In this document: positions 24,091 through 57,604 of the stretch, in pieces | Layout of the letters: each line of letters starts with the position of its first letter | How positions within the stretch are numbered: position 1 is the stretch's first letter | Source of the DNA: Thermoleophilia bacterium | Lineage (GTDB): Bacteria; Actinomycetota; Thermoleophilia; Miltoncostaeales; Miltoncostaeaceae | Direction of reading: 5' to 3' | Length of the DNA: 64,000 bases | NCBI GenBank assembly: GCA_020438485.1 | Contig: JAGQUM010000023.1 | Span: 1 to 64,000 of the forward strand | Program-made: the position numbers and the translations under genes | The notes under the pieces: model-generated | What the model was told of the DNA's origin: nothing | Seen by the model: only the letters and a program-made list of their open reading frames with translations | Database searches by the model: none

Positions 24091-26033
24091 ATGGACGCCC
24101 CTACGAACCCCCTCGGCCCCGCCGCTGCGGCGGTGGAGACCGCCGCGACGCTCGCCCCCCTCCCCGCGACGACCGCGACGCCCCGGCTGGGCGACGCGCT
24201 GGTGGCCCGCGGGCTGCTCACCGAGGAGCAGCTCGCGCACGCGCTCGACCTCCACCGCCGCAGCGGGCAGCGCCTGGGGCGCGTGCTGCTGTCGCTGGGG
24301 TACGTACAGCGCCTGGACATCTTCCGCGTGCTGGGCGAGGCCTGGGACCTGCCGTTCGTCGACCTCACGGCCACGCCCGTCGACGCCGTCCTGTGTCGCC
24401 ACTTCGACCCCGCCGTGCTGGCACAGGAGGGCTGGATCCCCGTGAGGCGCCTGGACAACGTGGTGGTCGTCGCCACCAGCGAGCCCGTGCGGCCCCACAT
24501 CTCGGCGTCCGTGCGCGACGCGCTCGGCGACGACGTGAGGGTGCGGTTCGAGGCGACGACCGACTGGGACGTCGACGCCGCGCTGAGGAGTGCGTTCCGC
24601 GAGCGGCTGACGGACCACGCGGCCAACCTCCTGTACGACCAGGACCCCATGCTGTCGGCCCGGCACGGGGTGACGCGCGGGCAGAAGGCGCTGATCGCGC
24701 TCGGCGGCCTCATCGGGGGGGCGGCGCTCGGCCTGCAGCCGATGCTGCTGCTGGTGGCGGTGCTCGTGGCGGCCAACCTCGCGTTCGGCGCCTCGATCCT
24801 GTTCAAGGTCGTGACGGCGATGGCCGGCTGGCACACGATCCGGCGCGCACACACGCGAGAGGAGGACCGCATCCCCGACGACGAGCTGCCCATGTACACG
24901 GTGCTGGTGCCCGTGTACAAGGAGGCCAACGTGGTCGGGAACCTGGTGAGCCACCTGCGCACGCTCGACTACCCCCAGGAGTCGCTCGAGATCCTGCTGC
25001 TCATGGAGGAGGACGACCACGAGACCATCGAGGCGGCGCGCGCGGCGCACCCACCGGCGACAGTGCGGTTCGTGATCGTCCCGAAGGGCGACCCCCAGAC
25101 CAAGCCCCGCGCGTGCAACCTCGGCCTGGTGTTCGCCCGCGGGGAGTTCCTCGTGATCTACGACGCCGAGGACCTGCCCGAGCCCGGGCAGCTTCGCGAG
25201 GCCGTGTCGGCCTTCCGCAACAGCGACGAGGACCTGGTGTGCGTACAGGCCCGCCTGAACTACTACAACGCGGGCGAGAACCTGCTCACGCGCATGTTCA
25301 CCCTCGAGTACTCGTGGTGGTTCGACTACATGCTGCCGGGCCTCGATCGTCTCGGGCTGCCGATCCCGCTGGGCGGCACGTCCAACCACTTCCGCACCGA
25401 CGTGCTGCGCGAGCTGGGCGGCTGGGACGCCTGGAACGTCACCGAGGACGCAGACCTGGGCCTGCGCGCGTCGGCGAAGGGCTACACCGTGGGCGTGATC
25501 CCGTCCACCACTTACGAGGAGGCCTGCGGCCGTTACCGGCCGTGGATCCGCCAGCGCACGCGCTGGATCAAGGGTTACATGCAGACGGCCCTGGTGCACA
25601 GCCGCCGCCCGGTGTCGACCGTCGCCGCGGCGGGATGGCGCGGGGGGATCGGACTGGCGCTATTGATCGCGGGCACGCCGCTGACGTTCCTTGCGGCGCC
25701 CGTCATGTCACGGCGCTCACATTCGCACCGTGGTTGTGGGAGTCCGGGCCGCGCGACCTGCTGCCGGGCGACCTCGAGCTGCTGGCACTCGCCAACCTGG
25801 TGCTCGGCAACCTGTTCATGATCGGCATCAACGCCATGGCGGTGGGCCGGCGGCGCATCATGTCCCTGCTGCCGTTCGCGCTGCTGAACCCCCTGTACTG
25901 GTGCCTGCACTCGTTCGCCGCGTGGCGCGCGTTGGTGCAGCTCATCCGTAACCCCTTTGTGTGGGAGAAGACCCCCCACGGCCTCACGTCGCACACCGCC
26001 CAGCTGGGGGTGGCGCAGGAGCCGGCGACCTAG
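24091..26033 (+). pseudogene. membrane glycosyltransferase (MshEN domain + GT2), broken by a one-base frameshift
   Basis: Reads as one protein of about 647 residues once a single missing base is restored near 25705-25710. Order: disordered Pro/Ala head, GspE/MshEN-type domain (about 30-150), two transmembrane helices near 190-235, GT2 catalytic domain with YDAEDLPEP, EDADLG and QRTRWIKG (about 265-510), then, in the next frame, C-terminal membrane helices (PWLWESGP to NPLYWCLHSFAAWR). The intact downstream frame and exact 3n fit after one base suggest a recent mutation or sequencing error. An MshEN domain can bind c-di-GMP in related proteins, suggesting c-di-GMP-controlled polysaccharide synthesis. 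Its TAG overlaps the convergent antiporter stop (CTAG). Confidence 0.75.
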
Positions 26034-49637: not shown

Positions 49638-51801
49638 ATGCAGGCCGATTCTCTGGACGTGACCCCGCGCGCGCCGATACGCGATCGACCCATCCTGCTT
49701 GCCCTCGTCGTCGCCCTCGCCGTGGTGGGCGCCACGCTGACCGCGTGGCTGTCCGGTCGCATGGGCGTGGCCATGGCGTCGCTCATCGGGATGGATGCCG
49801 CCGCGGCCATGTCGCTGATCGCGGCGTGGCGCTTCACCGGCGCCAGGTCGGTGGCGGACGGCCGCCAGCGCCGGGCGTTCACGATGTTCGCGCTGGGCTG
49901 CGCCCTCTGGGGTGCCGGGGCCGTCCCCTACTCCGCGTTCATCCTCACGGGCGGCAGCCCCGTCGAGCCCGGCGCGTGGTCGCAGGCGGGCTTCGCGCTG
50001 GCGTACATCCCGTGGTTCTGCGGGCTGTGGCTGCTGCGCCAGCCCATCCTGGCCGACGGCCGCCGCACGCTGCTGGACGTGGGCGTGGTCGAACTGGGCG
50101 CGTTCACGATCGTGGGCGCCGGGGGCGCCGGCCTGCTGTGGAACACCGACGTCGGGGTCGTGGACAACGCGGGCCTGCTGGCCGCCGCCGTCGCGGACAC
50201 CCTGCTGGTGATCGCCGCGTGCAACGCGGTGCGCCGCGTGTCGTTCACCCATCGCGCGTTCTCCATGTGGCTGCTCGCCGGCACGTGCCTGATGCTGATC
50301 GCCGACGCCGGGACCGCGTACGCCGCCACGCGCGGCCCGATCAGCTGGATGGCGGGCTCCAGCATCGCGCTGTACTGCGTCGTGTTCGCGACGTTCGCCA
50401 TCGCATCCGGGCGGCCCGCGGGCGTGCGCGACGCGACGCTGTCGGGCGAGCGGGTGACGTTCGCCATCGCGATGACGGCCCTGGCCCTCGCGGGGCCGTG
50501 CACGTTCTACGGGCCGGACTGGCTGCGCTGGCCCATGTGGATCATCGTGGCCGTCATGGCGTGGCGCATGCTCTGCATGATCGAGCGCCAGCGAGTGCCG
50601 GACCGCGACCCGCTGACCGGCATGTATGAGCTGAAGCCGCTGCTGCGCCACGGCGTTCGGCACGTGGAACTCCACGCACGGGTTCCGGGCCGGGGATGCG
50701 GTGCTGAAGCACCTGTCGGAGCTGCTCGTGGACCTCGACACGGGCCCCGGGGTGTGGGGCCGCGTGTCGTCCAACCGCTTCAGCTGGATCGGCGTGGTCG
50801 ACGGCCCCGGCGAGGCCCGCCGCGTGGCCCGGATGATCTGCGACGCCGCGGCCGACAACCGGGCGGGCCTGGCACCCCGCACCGGCCTCGCCATCTGCCC
50901 GCAGGACGCCGTCACGCCCGAGAGCGCCCGCGCCGCCGTGCGCGAGGCCATGGACGCCGCCCGCGACGCCGGCGAGAACCTCGTGGCGTTCGACGGCGGC
51001 CTGATGGACGGGGCCAACCCCACCGGCGCGCCGTCCGCGTCGTTCCGCGCACGTCGCAAGCGGATCGCGGCGATCATGGACGCCCCCGACGCCCTGACCC
51101 CCGTGTACCAGCCGATCGTCCACATGGCGACGCTCGCGGTGTCCGGGTACGAGGCCCTGACCCGCGTCAACGCCGAGCCGCGCCTGGGCCCCGATCAGTG
51201 GATCACCGAGGCCAAGCGCGTCGGCCTGGGGCTGGAGTTCGAGGCCGAGTGCATCCGCCGGGCGCTCGCGAACCGGGCCGACCTGCCCGCGGGCGCCTAC
51301 CTCTCGGTGAACTCCAGCCCCGAGCTCGTCCTGTCCGGCCGGCTCGACACCCTGCCACCCACCGGGCCGCTGGAATGGCTCATGATCGAGATCACCGAGC
51401 ACGAGGCGGTGACGGACTACGGCGAGCTGGGGAATCGTCTCGACAACCTGCGCGGCCGCGGCGCACGCGTCGCGGTGGACGACCTCGGTGCCGGGCACTC
51501 CACGCTGCGCCACGTGATGCAGATGAGCCCGGACTTCGCGAAGCTCGACCGCTCGCTGGTGGAGGGCATCGACCGCGACGGCGCCAAGCAGGCCCTGGTG
51601 CGCTCCATGGTCGCGTTCAGCAACGAGGTGGAGTGCTCGCTGGTGGCCGAGGGCGTCGAGACGCCGGCGGAGATGCAGACGCTGCGCGGTCTCGGCATGG
51701 ACCTCGGCCAGGGTTACCTGTTCCAGCGCCCCGAGCCGGCCATCGCGCCGCGCCTGTCCGAAGACCGACGACGCGTGATCGCGGCGATCCGCGCGGCGTA
51801 G
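49638..51801 (+). pseudogene. membrane protein with degenerate GGDEF and intact EAL domain, interrupted by a deletion/frameshift
   Basis: Frame 1 (49638 to about 50655) encodes eight or nine membrane helices and the start of a GGDEF domain (DRDPLTGMYELKPLLRHG). Frame 2 (from about 50656 to 51801) resumes at FGTWNSTHGFRAGDAVLKHL, equivalent to the F-K-x-x-N-D-x-x-G-H-x-x-G-D block, so about 20 residues and a non-multiple of three bases are missing. The GGDEF signature itself is lost (SSNRF). The EAL domain keeps YEALTRV, LSVNSSPE, ITEHEAV, VAVDDLGAGHSTL, KLDRS and VAEGVET, so it looked catalytically competent for c-di-GMP hydrolysis. Two ORFs may still be expressed; an assembly error is possible. 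Confidence 0.75.
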
Positions 51802-51819
51802 CCCGCGCCGGGGTTGGGC

Positions 51820-51837
51820 CCCCGGGACAACCCGGGG
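51820..51837 (+). terminator. hairpin after the EAL gene
   Basis: Perfect CCCCGGG / CCCGGGG stem with ACAA loop, 18 bases after the stop codon. Confidence 0.5.
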
Positions 51838-51929
51838 CGCACGAGCCCTGGTTCGGGGTCCATCGGGACGAGCCTCCTCGCGGACGATCCTCACGGCATC
51901 AGACGCCCTCCCCGGAAGGACCGACCGCC

Positions 51930-52103
51930 ATGCCCCGCGACCACCGCCCGTCCGACGACATCACAACCGTGTGGGAGCCGTGCGGCTCCTGCTGGGGGCA
52001 GCGCGTGATCTGGACGCTTCACCGGCACGGCGGGCGCCTGCACCGCGAGGCGTGCCCCGGGTGCCTGGGCGTGGGCCAGCGTGCCGTGATCGTGGCGGCC
52101 TAG
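51930..52103 (+). CDS. 57-residue CxxC-CxxC zinc-ribbon-like protein
   Basis: A small protein with two Cys pairs, EPCGSCWG near residues 17-24 and ACPGCLGVGQ near 42-51, spaced like a DnaJ-type or ribbon zinc site. A strong GGAAGGA Shine-Dalgarno lies nine bases before the ATG, the same layout as at 20140. It lies between the EAL and GGDEF genes, seven bases from the convergent GGDEF stop. Likely a metal-binding small protein; the partner is unknown. Confidence 0.65.
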   Translation: MPRDHRPSDDITTVWEPCGSCWGQRVIWTLHRHGGRLHREACPGCLGVGQRAVIVAA

Positions 52104-52110
52104 CGGGCCC

Positions 52111-53166
52111 TCACGCCTCCCCGGGGGTGCCCTGCCGGCCCACCACCGGCGCGCCGGACACCACGTTGCGTCCCGCCTGCTTCGACGCGTAAAGGGCCTC
52201 GTCGGAGGCCCGGAACAGGTCGGTGGCCGTGGCCCCGTCGCCCGCGACGGTCGTTGCCACGCCGACGCTGATGGTGACGCCCCCCATCTCCCCGGCGACG
52301 GCGGTGCGCAGCGACTCGGCCACGGCTCGCGCCGCGGGGGCGTCGCACGCCCGCAGCAGCACGACGAACTCGTCGCCGCCGAGGCGGGCGACGAAATCCC
52401 CGTGGCGCACGTTGCGGTCCAGCACGCCCGCGATGCGCCGCAGGGTCTCGTCGCCGGCGTGGTGGCCCCCCGTGTCGTTGATTCCCTTGAAGAGGTCGAC
52501 GTCCAGCGTCAGCAGCGAAACCGGCACCCCGGGGCTCTGGCCCTCCAGGGCGGCATCGACGGCCGCGTCGACGGCGCGGCGGTTCGGCAGCCCGGTGAGC
52601 TGGTCCTCCATCGCCTGACGGGCCAGCGCCCGGCGCAGCGTGTGCTCGCGCGCCCGCAGGAACACCAGCAGCCCGCACGAGATCGCCATCGTGACGATGA
52701 TGCCCGCGAGGTCCGCGACCGCCTTCGACGCGGGCATCAGCGTGAACAGCAGCCACGCCTCCGCCGCCCCGACCACGACGACGACCGCCGCGGCCTGCGG
52801 GGCCCGCAGGAACATGCCGGCGTACAGCACGGGCCACAGGGCGAACAGCTGGCTGCCCGTGCTGGTGTCGCGCGTGGCGTGGTTCATCCACACGATCAGG
52901 ACGACCGCGACCACGGGCAGCAGCACGAGCCCCCACGCGGGGACCGCGCGGGGCCGCGCCCAGGCGAGCACTCCGAAGGCGATGAACGCGGCCGCCATGG
53001 TGAGCTCCGCCGCCAGCACGTCCCGCGCGTACTCGGAGATCGTCAGGGACAGCACGGCGATGAACACGCCGCCCACCAGGTAGAACGTGCCGGCCGCGCG
53101 GGCGGCGACGACGTGGTCGTGGGGCGGGGCGAGGAGCCCACGCGCGAGTGACCGCAGCGCGTTCAC
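52111..53166 (-). CDS. membrane diguanylate cyclase (GGDEF)
   Basis: The 351-residue protein has six transmembrane helices (about residues 20-180), then a GGDEF domain at about 185-345 with DQLTGLPNRR, LDVDLFKGINDTGGHHAGD and RLGGDEFVVLL. The A-site GGDEF is perfect and an RxxD inhibitory site (RHGD) sits five residues upstream, so the enzyme should make c-di-GMP and be product-inhibited. The GTG start at 53166 overlaps the stop of the SDR gene (GTGA), so the two are one operon; an in-frame extension upstream only shadows the SDR. Confidence 0.9.
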   Translation of the reverse strand: MNALRSLARGLLAPPHDHVVAARAAGTFYLVGGVFIAVLSLTISEYARDVLAAELTMAAAFIAFGVLAWARPRAVPAWGLVLLPVVAVVLIVWMNHATRDTSTGSQLFALWPVLYAGMFLRAPQAAAVVVVVGAAEAWLLFTLMPASKAVADLAGIIVTMAISCGLLVFLRAREHTLRRALARQAMEDQLTGLPNRRAVDAAVDAALEGQSPGVPVSLLTLDVDLFKGINDTGGHHAGDETLRRIAGVLDRNVRHGDFVARLGGDEFVVLLRACDAPAARAVAESLRTAVAGEMGGVTISVGVATTVAGDGATATDLFRASDEALYASKQAGRNVVSGAPVVGRQGTPGEA

Positions 53167-53972
53167 GCGGGCCCGCGCCTCCCGCGCGGCCAGGCCCACC
53201 GCGCGAGGCGGCGCGTCAGGCCGGGGGCCAGCGCCTGTGTGAGGGCCGCGGCGCGCCACCACCGGGGCACGAACACCTCAGCGCGACCACGGCCCAGGGC
53301 GTCCATTACCTCGTCGGCACAGCGGTCCACGTCGATGACGGCCCGCCGGGCGAGACGGCGGCCCACGAGCTCGGTCTGCGGGAAGCCCGGCGTTACGACC
53401 GGGCCGGGGTTGACGGTGAGCACCCGCACGCCCTCGGCGGCCCCGCTCGCCGTCAGCGCCCGCGACCACGCCAGCGCCGCGTGCTTGGAGGCCGTGTAGG
53501 GCGCGTCATACGCGGTCGCCACCGTGCCCGCCACGGACACGATGTTGACCACCGTTCCCCCGGCGGCGACCAGCGCGGGCCACAGGCCCACGGTCACGTC
53601 GGCGGTGCCGTGGAAGTTCACCCCCATCACGCGCCGGGCCAGCGCGGGGTCCGTTCGCGGCGCGGTGCGGCGGCCGGGGATTCCCGCGTTGCACACCAGT
53701 AGATCCACCCGGGCGTACTCGCGGCGCACGCGGTCGCAGAACGCGGCGACCGCGCCGGGGTCGGCCACGTCCAGCGGCACGGCCGAGGCCGCATCCCCCA
53801 CCGCGCGGCGCGCCGCCTCGAGACGCCCCGCGTCCCGGCCCACCAGGATGACCCGCATGCCGCGGGCCGCCAGCCGGCGGCTGATGGCCAGCCCGATGCC
53901 GGACGTCGCCCCGGTCACGATCGCGAGGCGGGGCGCGGCGGGCGTTCCTCCGGTGCGCGAGGGATCGTTCAT
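53163..53972 (-). CDS. short-chain dehydrogenase/reductase
   Basis: The 269-residue SDR has the Rossmann motif TGATSGIGLA near residues 20-29, NAG near 93-95, catalytic Ser in VSVAGTV near 142-148 and YxxxK in YTASK near 157-161. The C-terminal segment is hydrophobic and Trp/Arg-rich (RWWRAAALTQALAPGLTRRL), as in many membrane-associated classical SDRs. The substrate is unknown. ATG 53972 has CACAAT seven bases upstream. Co-transcribed with the GGDEF cyclase. Confidence 0.88.
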   Translation of the reverse strand: MNDPSRTGGTPAAPRLAIVTGATSGIGLAISRRLAARGMRVILVGRDAGRLEAARRAVGDAASAVPLDVADPGAVAAFCDRVRREYARVDLLVCNAGIPGRRTAPRTDPALARRVMGVNFHGTADVTVGLWPALVAAGGTVVNIVSVAGTVATAYDAPYTASKHAALAWSRALTASGAAEGVRVLTVNPGPVVTPGFPQTELVGRRLARRAVIDVDRCADEVMDALGRGRAEVFVPRWWRAAALTQALAPGLTRRLARWAWPRGRRGPA

Positions 53973-54135
53973 CGGCGGAATTGTGACACTTCCGCCGTCG
54001 CGCACCAGGGGACGGGGCCGCCCATGGACGCCCGAGATCCGGTCGTGCCCGGGGGGACGGAGATGACCGGAGCGCGGACGCCCGATGCGGCGTGAGGCAG
54101 AGGATGCCAACTCCGCCAATGGGCCACCAGTGCGC

Positions 54136-54176
54136 GTTTGCGACGCGTCGCGGCGCGATATGCGAAGATTGCAAAC
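54136..54176. promoter_or_regulatory. candidate autoregulatory region of the RamB-like gene
   Basis: GTTTGC (54136-54141) and GCAAAC (54171-54176) form a widely spaced inverted repeat; the inner copy sits in ATTGCAAA, reminiscent of the RamB motif with its TTTGCAAA core. A perfect 12-base palindrome GCGACGCGTCGC (54140-54151) lies between. The right half ends one base before ATG 54178. Confidence 0.45.
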
Positions 54177-54177
54177 G

Positions 54178-55617
54178 ATGCGGAGCACCGGTTTGCGGGG
54201 AAAGGCGCGGCTGCTGGTCGGCCCCCACGTCAGGCGGGCCCGCGAAGCGGCGGGGCTATCGCAGGCCGCGCTCGCCCGCCGCATCGGGATCTCCCCGAGC
54301 TACCTCAACCAGATCGAGCGCAACCAGCGCCCCCTGACGCTGCGCGTGCTCGCCCTCCTGCGCGACGCGCTCGGCGTGGACCTCGACGTGGTGGGTGACG
54401 ACGCGGACGGGCGCCTCGTGATGGATGTGCAGGGCGCGCTGGCCGACACGCGGGCCGGCGTCGCGCACGCCGCGGGCCGCGACGACATCCGCGAGCTCGT
54501 CCGGGCGTTCCCGGACGCGGCGCGTGCCCTGGCCCACTGGCACCGCAACGCGGTGGAGGCCCAGCGACGCATCGAGGAGATGGCCGTCGGCCTGGGCGCC
54601 GACCTGCCGCACGGCGCGCCGACGCCGGTGTCGCCGTACGAGGCGGTGTTGGACTTCGTCCACGACCACCGCAACCACTTCGCGGACCTCGACGAGCGGG
54701 CCGAGCGACTGGCCGAGGACGAGGGCCTGCACGGGCTCGCCGCCGAGGCCGGCCTGGCGGAGAGGCTGCGCCGCCGCCACGGCGTGAGGGTCGCGCTCGT
54801 CGACCGCGACGCCGGCCGGCGGCGGTTCGACGCCGCGACCCGCCGGCTCGAGATCCCCCGCCGCCTCGCCCCCCGGCGCCGGGCGTTCCAGATGGCGGTC
54901 GAGCTCGCCTTCCTCGAGCACGGCGACGCGCTGGACCGCCTCACCGACACCCCGGGCCTCGGCGACGCCGACGCCCGCGCTCTCGCGCGCATCGGGCTGG
55001 CCAACTACTTCGCCGGCGCGGTGGTGCTGCCGTACGGCCGCTTCCTGGAGGAGGCCGAGCGGGTGGGATACGACATCGCCGTGCTGGCCTCGACGTTCGA
55101 CGTGGGCATCGAGGCCGTGTGCCACCGCCTGTCGACGCTGCAACGCCCCGGCCGCTGCGGCGTCCCGTTCTTCTTCGTCCGCGTCGACCGGGCCGGGAAC
55201 ATCTCCAAGCACCACTCGGCGGGCGAGCTGCAGCTGTCGCGGGTGGGCGGCACGTGCCCGTTGTGGGCCGTGTTCGCAGCGTTCGCGACGCCCGGGCGCT
55301 TCGTCACGCAGGTCGCTCAGATGCCCGACGGCCGGCTGCACCTGTGGGTGGCCCGCACGGTGGTGCAACCGACGGGCGGCTACGGCTCGCCGGACGTCGA
55401 GTTCGCGCTGGGGCTCGGGTGTGAGCTGCATCACGCCCACCGCCTGGTGTACGGGCGGGGACTGCCGACGGCAGACCCCGCGCTGGCCGTGCCCATCGGC
55501 CCCGGCTGCCGGCTGTGCGTGCGCGCCGGGTGCCGGCAGCGGGCGTACCCGCTGGTGGGCCGCCCGCTCGACATCGACGAGGCGCGCAGCCCGGCGACGC
55601 CCTACCCTGCGATGTGA
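54178..55617 (+). CDS. RamB/ScfR-type short-chain fatty acyl transcriptional regulator
   Basis: The 479-residue protein has an XRE HTH at about residues 16-72 (VRRAREAAGLSQAALARRIG, ISPSYLNQIERNQRPLT), a central ImmA/IrrE-like domain (about 150-290) in which the metalloprotease HExxH is not retained (ELAFLEHGD), and a C-terminal DUF2083-like domain ending in a Cys-rich signature (GCRLCVRAGCRQRAYP near 442-457). This is the layout of RamB and MlaR/ScfR regulators of acetate, propionate and glyoxylate metabolism. Starts at 54160 and 54178 are both ATG; the second is preferred. Its stop overlaps the next start by one base. Confidence 0.9.
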   Translation: MRSTGLRGKARLLVGPHVRRAREAAGLSQAALARRIGISPSYLNQIERNQRPLTLRVLALLRDALGVDLDVVGDDADGRLVMDVQGALADTRAGVAHAAGRDDIRELVRAFPDAARALAHWHRNAVEAQRRIEEMAVGLGADLPHGAPTPVSPYEAVLDFVHDHRNHFADLDERAERLAEDEGLHGLAAEAGLAERLRRRHGVRVALVDRDAGRRRFDAATRRLEIPRRLAPRRRAFQMAVELAFLEHGDALDRLTDTPGLGDADARALARIGLANYFAGAVVLPYGRFLEEAERVGYDIAVLASTFDVGIEAVCHRLSTLQRPGRCGVPFFFVRVDRAGNISKHHSAGELQLSRVGGTCPLWAVFAAFATPGRFVTQVAQMPDGRLHLWVARTVVQPTGGYGSPDVEFALGLGCELHHAHRLVYGRGLPTADPALAVPIGPGCRLCVRAGCRQRAYPLVGRPLDIDEARSPATPYPAM

Positions 55618-56561
55618 TGACGCCCGGCGACCCGAGCCCCTCGCGCGGCGCGCCGGCCGCCGCGCCGCTGCGCACACGCGACCAGGAGTCCGACGCGGAG
55701 GACCACGCCGCCGGGCTGGACCACGGCGTCGAGTGCCACATGGAGTGGACCCGCCGCCTGCTGCGCGTGGCGGCGCGCGGCGACGCGCCCACCGACGACA
55801 TCGTGGGCCCGGACGCCCACGAGCGCTGCGCGTTCGGCCTCTGGATGGCCGCGCAACGGGAGTGGTGCGAGGGAGTCGACGAGGACGCCGCCGCCCGGGC
55901 GTTCGCCAGCCACCGGGATATGCACGATGCCGCGGGCGCGATCGCCGCCGCGTGCGGCCACGGGCGCCCCCCCGACGCCGCGCTCCACGATCGCTTCGAG
56001 GCGGAGCAGCGCACGCTGTACGCGTCGCTGTCGCGCATCAAGACGCTGGCCCTGGCACGAGCCGCGCACCGCGACGCGCTGACCGGCCTCGCGACCCGCC
56101 AGGCGCTGGGGATCGAGGTCGACCGCACGTGGCGGATCGCGCGGCGCCGGGGGCACGACGTGGCTGTGCTCCTGATCGACGTCGATCACTTCAAGGAGGT
56201 CAACGACACGCACGGGCATCCCGTCGGCGACCGGACGCTGCAGGAGATCGCACGGGCGCTCGCCGCCTGCGCCCGGGCCGGCGAGCCCGTGCTGCGCTAC
56301 GGGGGCGAGGAGTTCCTCGTGCTGCTGATCGCCGCCGGCCTGCCGTCGGCCGCGATCGCCGGCCACCGCTTCCTGGACGCCGTCCGGTCGTCGGCCGCGT
56401 CCGCGGCGGCGGCCCGCGGCCCGGTCACCGCGAGCGGCGGGCTGGCGCTGATGGACGGTCCCGACGGCGTGGCCGAGGCGATCGAGCGGGCCGACCGCGC
56501 CCTGTACCGCGCCAAGCGGGCAGGCCGCGACCGCCTGTGCTGGGGTAACGAGCCGGCCTGA
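55617..56561 (+). CDS. zinc-sensing diguanylate cyclase (CZB-GGDEF, DgcZ-like)
   Basis: The 314-residue soluble protein has an N-terminal chemoreceptor zinc-binding domain with ligands H41 (HMEWT), C71 (CAFGLWM), H99 and H103 (SHRDMH), spaced 30, 28 and 4 residues, close to E. coli DgcZ. The GGDEF domain (about 150-310) has DALTGLATRQ, IDVDHFKEVNDTHGHPVGD and an active GGEEF at 228-232; no RxxD inhibitory site. Zinc should repress c-di-GMP synthesis. It overlaps the RamB-like gene (TGATG), an unexpected pairing of carbon and zinc/c-di-GMP control. Confidence 0.88.
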   Translation: MTPGDPSPSRGAPAAAPLRTRDQESDAEDHAAGLDHGVECHMEWTRRLLRVAARGDAPTDDIVGPDAHERCAFGLWMAAQREWCEGVDEDAAARAFASHRDMHDAAGAIAAACGHGRPPDAALHDRFEAEQRTLYASLSRIKTLALARAAHRDALTGLATRQALGIEVDRTWRIARRRGHDVAVLLIDVDHFKEVNDTHGHPVGDRTLQEIARALAACARAGEPVLRYGGEEFLVLLIAAGLPSAAIAGHRFLDAVRSSAASAAAARGPVTASGGLALMDGPDGVAEAIERADRALYRAKRAGRDRLCWGNEPA

Positions 56562-56578
56562 TCACGGCCGGTGACGGG

Positions 56579-57604
56579 TCAGGAGCGCGCGGGCAGGCAG
56601 ACGCCCGCGACCCGCTCGAGCGAGCGCAGCCACGCGCCGCGGTCCACCGCGACGGAGGCGACCATCAGCTCGTCCGCGTCCGCGTGCGTCCGGAAGCCCT
56701 CGAGGTACTCCCGCGCGGCCCGCGGCGTGCCGACGGCCGTGTACGTCAGCATCGCGTCGACGTGTCGTCCGGCCTCGGTGCGCAGGATCTCGTCGGCCTC
56801 CGCGTCGCTGAACACCTGGCGCGGCCGGCCGAGGATCAGGCCGACGCGGCGGCGGCGGGTGGCCAGGAGCAGGTCGGTGGCCTCGGCGTCGGTGTCGGCG
56901 ACGATCACTCCCACACCGGCGATCACGTACGGGGCGTCCAGCTGCGGGGACGGCCGGAACTCGGCGCGGTACAGCGCCACCGCCTGTTCCAGCGCGGCCG
57001 GGGCGAAGTGCGAGGCGAACGCGTAGGGCAGCCCCAGGGCGGCGGCCAACCGAGCGCCGAATAGCGACGAGCCGAGGATGTAGACGGGCACGTCGCTGCC
57101 GCGGCCCGGCGTCGCCTCCACCCCGGGCACGAGGGTCCGCTCGCCCAGGTACGCCCGCAGTTCCTGCACGTCCTGCGGGAAGCGCTCCGCGTCGGCCACG
57201 GTCGTGCGCAGCGCGCGGGCCGTCGCCTGGTCGGTGCCCGGCGCGCGCCCCAGCCCCAGGTCGATGCGCCCGGGGTGGAGCGCGGCGAGCGTGCCGAACT
57301 GCTCGGCGATGAGCAGCGGCGAATGGTTGGGCAGCATGATTCCGCCGGCCCCCAGGCGGATCGTGGAGGTCTGGGACGCGACGTGGGCGATGAGCACCGA
57401 CGTGGCCGCCGACGCGATGGCGGGCATGTTGTGGTGCTCGGCGTACCAGATGCGGGTGTAGCCCCACGCCTCGGCGCGCCGGGCCAGGTCCACGCTGGCG
57501 GTGAACGCGTCTGCCACGGTCTCGCCGGGACCCACGGGCGCCAGGTCGAGGATCGACAGCGGCACGGGGAACGCGGGCGTCGTGGGGTCCCGAGGTGGGC
57601 GCAC
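56579..57604 (-). CDS. LLM-class flavin-dependent oxidoreductase
   Basis: The 341-residue TIM-barrel protein resembles bacterial luciferase-like monooxygenases of the MsnO8/YhbW-type group: [18 protein letters not shown] at about 17-34, [18 protein letters not shown] near 51-68, [20 protein letters not shown] near 84-103 and [12 protein letters not shown] near 113-124. It uses reduced FMN (or F420 in some actinobacterial relatives), so it needs a reductase; the window has a flavin reductase at 18.4 kb but not adjacent. GTG 57604 follows TACGCT by six bases. Confidence 0.9.

Follow-up and report, generated by a model that had tools for sequence, protein, structure and literature searches.

The locus examined here raises the question of how a GGDEF cyclase resembling the zinc-sensing DgcZ of E. 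coli came to be encoded directly behind a RamB-like regulator in an actinobacterial genome, and whether it acts together with the other c-di-GMP genes found beside it. The locus lies on contig C66 of a 2.58 Mb draft genome in 91 contigs, with a GC content of about 74%, and the whole stretch of DNA analysed, 64,000 nucleotides, is referred to below as the window. A preliminary description had interpreted the locus as a c-di-GMP signalling cluster containing a zinc-sensing cyclase coupled to a carbon regulator. The individual genes that it named were all recovered, including an MshEN-GT2 protein encoded elsewhere in the window; they are listed here together with two further genes of the locus, for a short-chain dehydrogenase and a monooxygenase:

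24091–25821, + strand, MshEN-glycosyltransferase 2 protein (MshEN 45 bits, GT2 89 bits)
49638–50660, + strand, N-terminal membrane part and GGDEF start of a frame-broken GGDEF-EAL protein
50644–51801, + strand, degenerate GGDEF remainder and EAL domain of the same protein in another frame (Pfam EAL, E 2.7e-46)
51930–52103, + strand, four-cysteine (CxxC) micro-protein of 57 aa (CGSCWGQR ... CPGCLGVGQR)
52111–53262, − strand, membrane GGDEF cyclase with several hydrophobic stretches (GGDEF, E 9e-38)
53163–53971, − strand, short-chain dehydrogenase (SDR), divergent from the RamB-like gene
54085–55617, + strand, RamB/ScfR-type regulator (HTH_3, Peptidase_M78-like and ScfRs C-terminal domains)
55617–56561, + strand, DgcZ-like CZB-GGDEF protein of 314 aa
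56579–57700, − strand, luciferase-like monooxygenase, convergent to the CZB-GGDEF gene

The CZB-GGDEF protein comprises an N-terminal CZB domain and a C-terminal GGDEF domain (Pfam, E 8.9e-39) as its only domains, and is soluble. Its CZB score straddles the Pfam cut-off of 29.4 bits (26.9 bits by hmmscan, 30.1 bits in the genome search). The NCBIfam DgcZ model PRK09894 covers residues 31–308 at 206.3 bits, below the equivalog cut-off of 256 bits, and the protein is therefore described as DgcZ-like rather than as DgcZ itself. DgcZ was also the best sequence match in the PDB (4h54, E 2.8e-30, residues 33–309), and a profile of the N-terminal domain returned a single significant match, again DgcZ (3t9o, E 9.6e-13), in which the four ligands and the adjacent Trp were aligned. 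The putative zinc ligands H41, C71, H99 and H103, numbered correctly in the preliminary description, align in register with H22, C52, H79 and H83 of DgcZ (3His/1Cys). The claim that their spacing matches that of DgcZ holds for the first and last intervals, with the middle one a residue longer (30/28/4 versus 30/27/4), making this a near-match rather than an identity. W44, three positions beyond the first His ligand (H41-M-E-W44), is the Trp typical of CZB cyclases, which a 2021 survey described at this position in the cyclase subgroup (PMC8262984). Across eight aligned CZB-GGDEF proteins, H41, W44, C71, F73, W76, H99 and H103 were invariant, and the FGxW motif is kept here. The GGEEF active-site motif lies at residue 229, and the canonical RxxD I-site is absent, with RAGE in its place; DgcZ, too, has RxxE instead of RxxD before GGEEF.

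The predicted structure points in the same direction. The two top Foldseek matches of a full-length model (pLDDT 85) were both DgcZ, and the model aligned with 4h54_A over 267 residues (Z 24.4, rmsd 5.9 Å); this rmsd could stem from the two domains being set at another angle to each other. When the N-terminal domain was modelled alone (pLDDT 90.5), the CZB crystal structure of DgcZ ranked first (3t9o_B; Z 14.0, 2.1 Å, 112/115 residues), above every other helical bundle, and the predicted fold is the CZB four-helix one. The modelled domain matches the zinc domain of DgcZ, with the four residues in register by alignment, contrary to the refuting outcome that the preliminary description had named for structure prediction. 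Taken together, the family model, the sequence alignment, the predicted structure and the PDB match provide good support for a DgcZ-like cyclase predicted to sense zinc, as had been proposed. Relative to DgcZ (YdeH; 4h54, 3t9o), the protein has the same soluble CZB-GGDEF architecture, four ligands, Trp and GGEEF motif, but is only about 26–28% identical, has a longer N-terminal tail and the additional residue between C and H, is actinobacterial, and has a start codon overlapping a RamB-type gene. TlpD-like chemoreceptors also have a 3His/1Cys CZB domain, although theirs is C-terminal to the MCP signalling domain.

The host was placed using GroEL. The nearest sequences to the GroEL encoded in the window are actinobacterial: it scores 742 bits against 60 kDa chaperonin 2 of M. 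tuberculosis (3rtk), versus 634 bits against E. coli GroEL, and its first seven matches in a plasmid collection were actinobacterial (66.5–68.8%). No homologue of WhiB, sought as a phylum marker, was found in the genome, suggesting that the host likely belongs to a deep-branching actinobacterial class. Carriage of the cyclase on a plasmid was rejected, there being no plasmid match at 1e-30.

No full-length relative of the cyclase was found in 100 relatives of the host. A profile of the CZB part, run over 396 genomes of the phylum, matched frames of 127 to 1403 aa in ten other genomes, most of them, judged by size alone, chemoreceptor-sized (about 475–586 aa), and none of the other phylum genomes sampled gave a match of comparable strength. 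The closest named relative is instead a protein of Thiobacillus sp. MAG W21 (L012; 42% over residues 32–306), encoded on a betaproteobacterial contig of 61% GC with no RamB, SDR, MFS or EAL relatives nearby. We consider it probable that the gene is a DgcZ-type soluble cyclase acquired whole from a proteobacterial source, that it took up a place immediately behind a RamB/ScfR-type regulator already present, and that it is zinc-gated and translated together with that regulator.

The strongest competing history is one of local domain joining, in which a native actinobacterial GGDEF protein gained a CZB domain, for example from a chemoreceptor, and came to look like DgcZ. A CZB chemoreceptor is encoded in the same genome, the highest identity of the GGDEF domain is to a sequence of the related genome G010 (48%), and a quicker GGDEF tree under a simpler model set the domain among native actinobacterial ones with low support. 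That placement was superseded by a mixture-model tree, in which the CZB-GGDEF protein groups with the Thiobacillus protein and E. coli DgcZ (89/81, which is not strong). The GGDEF domain taken alone also scores best for the Thiobacillus protein (134 versus 118 bits), the similarity to that protein and to DgcZ runs over the full length, the Trp at position 44 is of the cyclase type, and the CZB profile finds DgcZ; local joining therefore seems unlikely. In AU tests, grouping with L012 was not rejected (p 0.39), nor was grouping with all DgcZ-like rows (p 0.25); a p of 0.02 was obtained for grouping with the full set of native rows, a value confounded by the fact that native rows need not form one clade. 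The conflict with the quick tree leaves the history of transfer unsure, so that transfer from Proteobacteria is the likeliest and best-supported history of the cyclase but not a proven one. Any such transfer was not recent, since the GC content of the gene by codon position (0.80/0.57/0.95) resembles that of its neighbours.

The gene in front of the cyclase encodes a regulator with the HTH, M78-like and ScfRs (212 bits) domains of the RamB/ScfR superfamily, and its likely start is near 54184. It matches the NCBIfam RamB model NF038139 along its length (487.5 bits over 463 residues) but misses the 700-bit equivalog cut-off, and so is RamB-like only, as the preliminary description had termed it; a further difference from that family is that its neighbours include no acetate or glyoxylate genes. 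The two genes meet at ATGTGATGACG, where the TGA of the RamB-like gene (55615–55617) overlaps the ATG of the cyclase (55617–55619) as TGATG. By eye, no Shine-Dalgarno-like run was seen upstream of this ATG, and a scan of 53900–56700 found no Sigma70-type promoters, which may not apply here, and no terminators. Gene overlaps are common locally: the GTG of the membrane GGDEF gene (53166–53164) overlaps the SDR stop as GTGA, and gaps of 0–2 bases separate other co-directional gene pairs of the window. The TGATG overlap by itself therefore carries little information.

True relatives of the RamB-like regulator occur in four other genomes of the family (G001, G005, G025 and G016; 71% identity in G001, and 59, 59 and 55% in the others), none of which has a CZB-GGDEF gene. 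In G001, which belongs to the same genus, the divergent SDR/RamB pair is conserved within the order EAL, SDR, RamB, MFS, TetR, FAH-like. There the end of RamB abuts a convergent MFS gene, leaving no room for a cyclase, and the interval lacks the CZB-GGDEF, membrane GGDEF, micro-protein and luciferase-like genes. By eye, RamB of G025 adjoins genes resembling acyl-CoA carboxylase subunits. Nor was RamB found near DgcZ-like genes at seven proteobacterial loci, the one exception being a short HTH-type match in L016. Absence of the coupling from relatives, an outcome that the preliminary description had itself set as refuting, was thus obtained. The earlier claim of coupling to RamB stands for the gene overlap and fails for its conservation, while the suggestion that such an arrangement is unusual proved right in the narrow sense that no other genome searched was seen to have it.

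The remaining genes of the locus have histories of their own. The GGDEF-EAL frame breaks near 50640–50660, inside the GGDEF domain, with about 30 codons lost at the change of frame, and the EAL part, open to 51798, keeps its EAL, N, ExxE, DD, K, E and Q catalytic motifs. Paralogues in G001 and in the present genome are unbroken; the G001 orthologue is also broken in its GGDEF domain, at a different nearby site (L152 6830–7000, against 50580–50720 in the window), and the EAL halves of the two genomes are both open and 60% identical. Two readings fit: an assembly error at this gene in both drafts, or continued use of the EAL half by itself. The membrane cyclase carries the I-site ascribed to it (RHGD, exactly five residues before GGDEF). 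Within the conserved divergent SDR/RamB pair, each arm has one of the two cyclases at its 3' end.

The micro-protein is real, with relatives in G006 (64%), G012, G019, G025, G010 and G007. The family, CGxCWGQR ... CPxCLGxGxR, has a weak Pfam match, to the DnaJ zinc domain (E 0.022), and is kept within the bacterial family in varied neighbourhoods and not beside cyclases (L195–L201, L203). Since its relatives adjoin unrelated genes, the micro-protein was rejected as a c-di-GMP partner. The luciferase-like gene, which G001 likewise lacks between RamB and MFS, may have arrived together with the CZB-GGDEF cyclase. The MshEN-GT2 protein is a possible c-di-GMP target.

The genome encodes 46 GGDEF and 14 EAL domains in about 48 c-di-GMP genes, a repertoire that looks unusually dense for its size. 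Could the EAL protein, the membrane GGDEF, the CxxC protein and the CZB-GGDEF protein, with RamB, form a functional module joining carbon status, zinc and c-di-GMP? Their physical closeness speaks for it, this being the only triple of c-di-GMP genes so tight in the genome (4.9 kb), as does the fact that each cyclase gene overlaps the 3' end of one of the divergent genes, SDR or RamB. Random placement of 48 genes would nevertheless yield a triple within 4.9 kb 0.19 times on average (P about 0.17), and only EAL, SDR and RamB are common to this locus and G001, where neither of the cyclases is present, nor the micro-protein, nor the monooxygenase. Elsewhere in the family, RamB orthologues have other neighbours, such as the carboxylase-like genes of G025, and the micro-protein family occurs in varied settings. 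On the G001 synteny and the chance estimate the cluster was rejected as a unit, and a functional module is distinctly improbable. No related genome examined shares the arrangement, so the cluster probably does not represent an old functional unit. The RamB-cyclase arrangement and the cluster are features of one genome, and the EAL, membrane GGDEF and micro-protein genes are to be read as neighbours of the CZB-GGDEF cyclase rather than as its established partners.

For the whole-gene acquisition that we favour, a mechanism can be drawn by analogy with E. coli DgcZ, which has a very high affinity for Zn2+, is inhibited by zinc, and is released from inhibition when HOCl oxidises its ligand cysteine (PMC8262984, PMC8846402). 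The CZB four-helix domain would hold Zn2+ through H41, C71, H99 and H103 and, when loaded, would keep the GGDEF dimer inactive; the GGEEF domain would be released for c-di-GMP synthesis once zinc is lost or C71 is oxidised. Through the TGATG overlap, translation of the cyclase would be linked to that of RamB, so that enzyme levels would track RamB expression. That the CZB domain instead no longer senses zinc, leaving a cyclase that is constitutive or otherwise regulated, might be read from the borderline Pfam score and the longer C-to-H interval, but is very doubtful given that the ligands are all conserved, as are the FGxW motif and W44, and that the predicted fold closely matches 3t9o.

The 2021 survey reported that CZB cyclases are restricted to Proteobacteria and that the chemoreceptor and cyclase types of CZB do not co-occur, although single exceptions outside the stated classes in its table show that the restriction is not absolute (PMC8262984). 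Both types are present in the genome studied here, the MCP-CZB chemoreceptor lying on contig C91. MCP-CZB chemoreceptors were seen in this genome and in G010 (L157 4610–6079; L156 7989–9110), and are rare in the family, with a CZB match in 2/119 genomes. DgcZ-type enzymes have so far been reported almost only from Proteobacteria, and it is mildly new to find a DgcZ-like cyclase alongside a CZB chemoreceptor in an actinobacterial genome. We tentatively raise the possibility that a deep-branching actinobacterium gained a proteobacterial cyclase gated by zinc or redox state and wired it into the RamB transcript, such that c-di-GMP synthesis would need both a carbon-status signal, for expression, and zinc loss or oxidation, for activity, while the CZB chemoreceptor would read the same cue for movement. 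The overlap with RamB would matter only if the two genes prove to be co-expressed. The finding adds an actinobacterial genome to those with CZB-regulated cyclases and, with chemoreceptor and cyclase together, runs against the either-or pattern of the survey; this co-occurrence offers a natural test of whether both CZB outputs answer the same zinc or redox signal.
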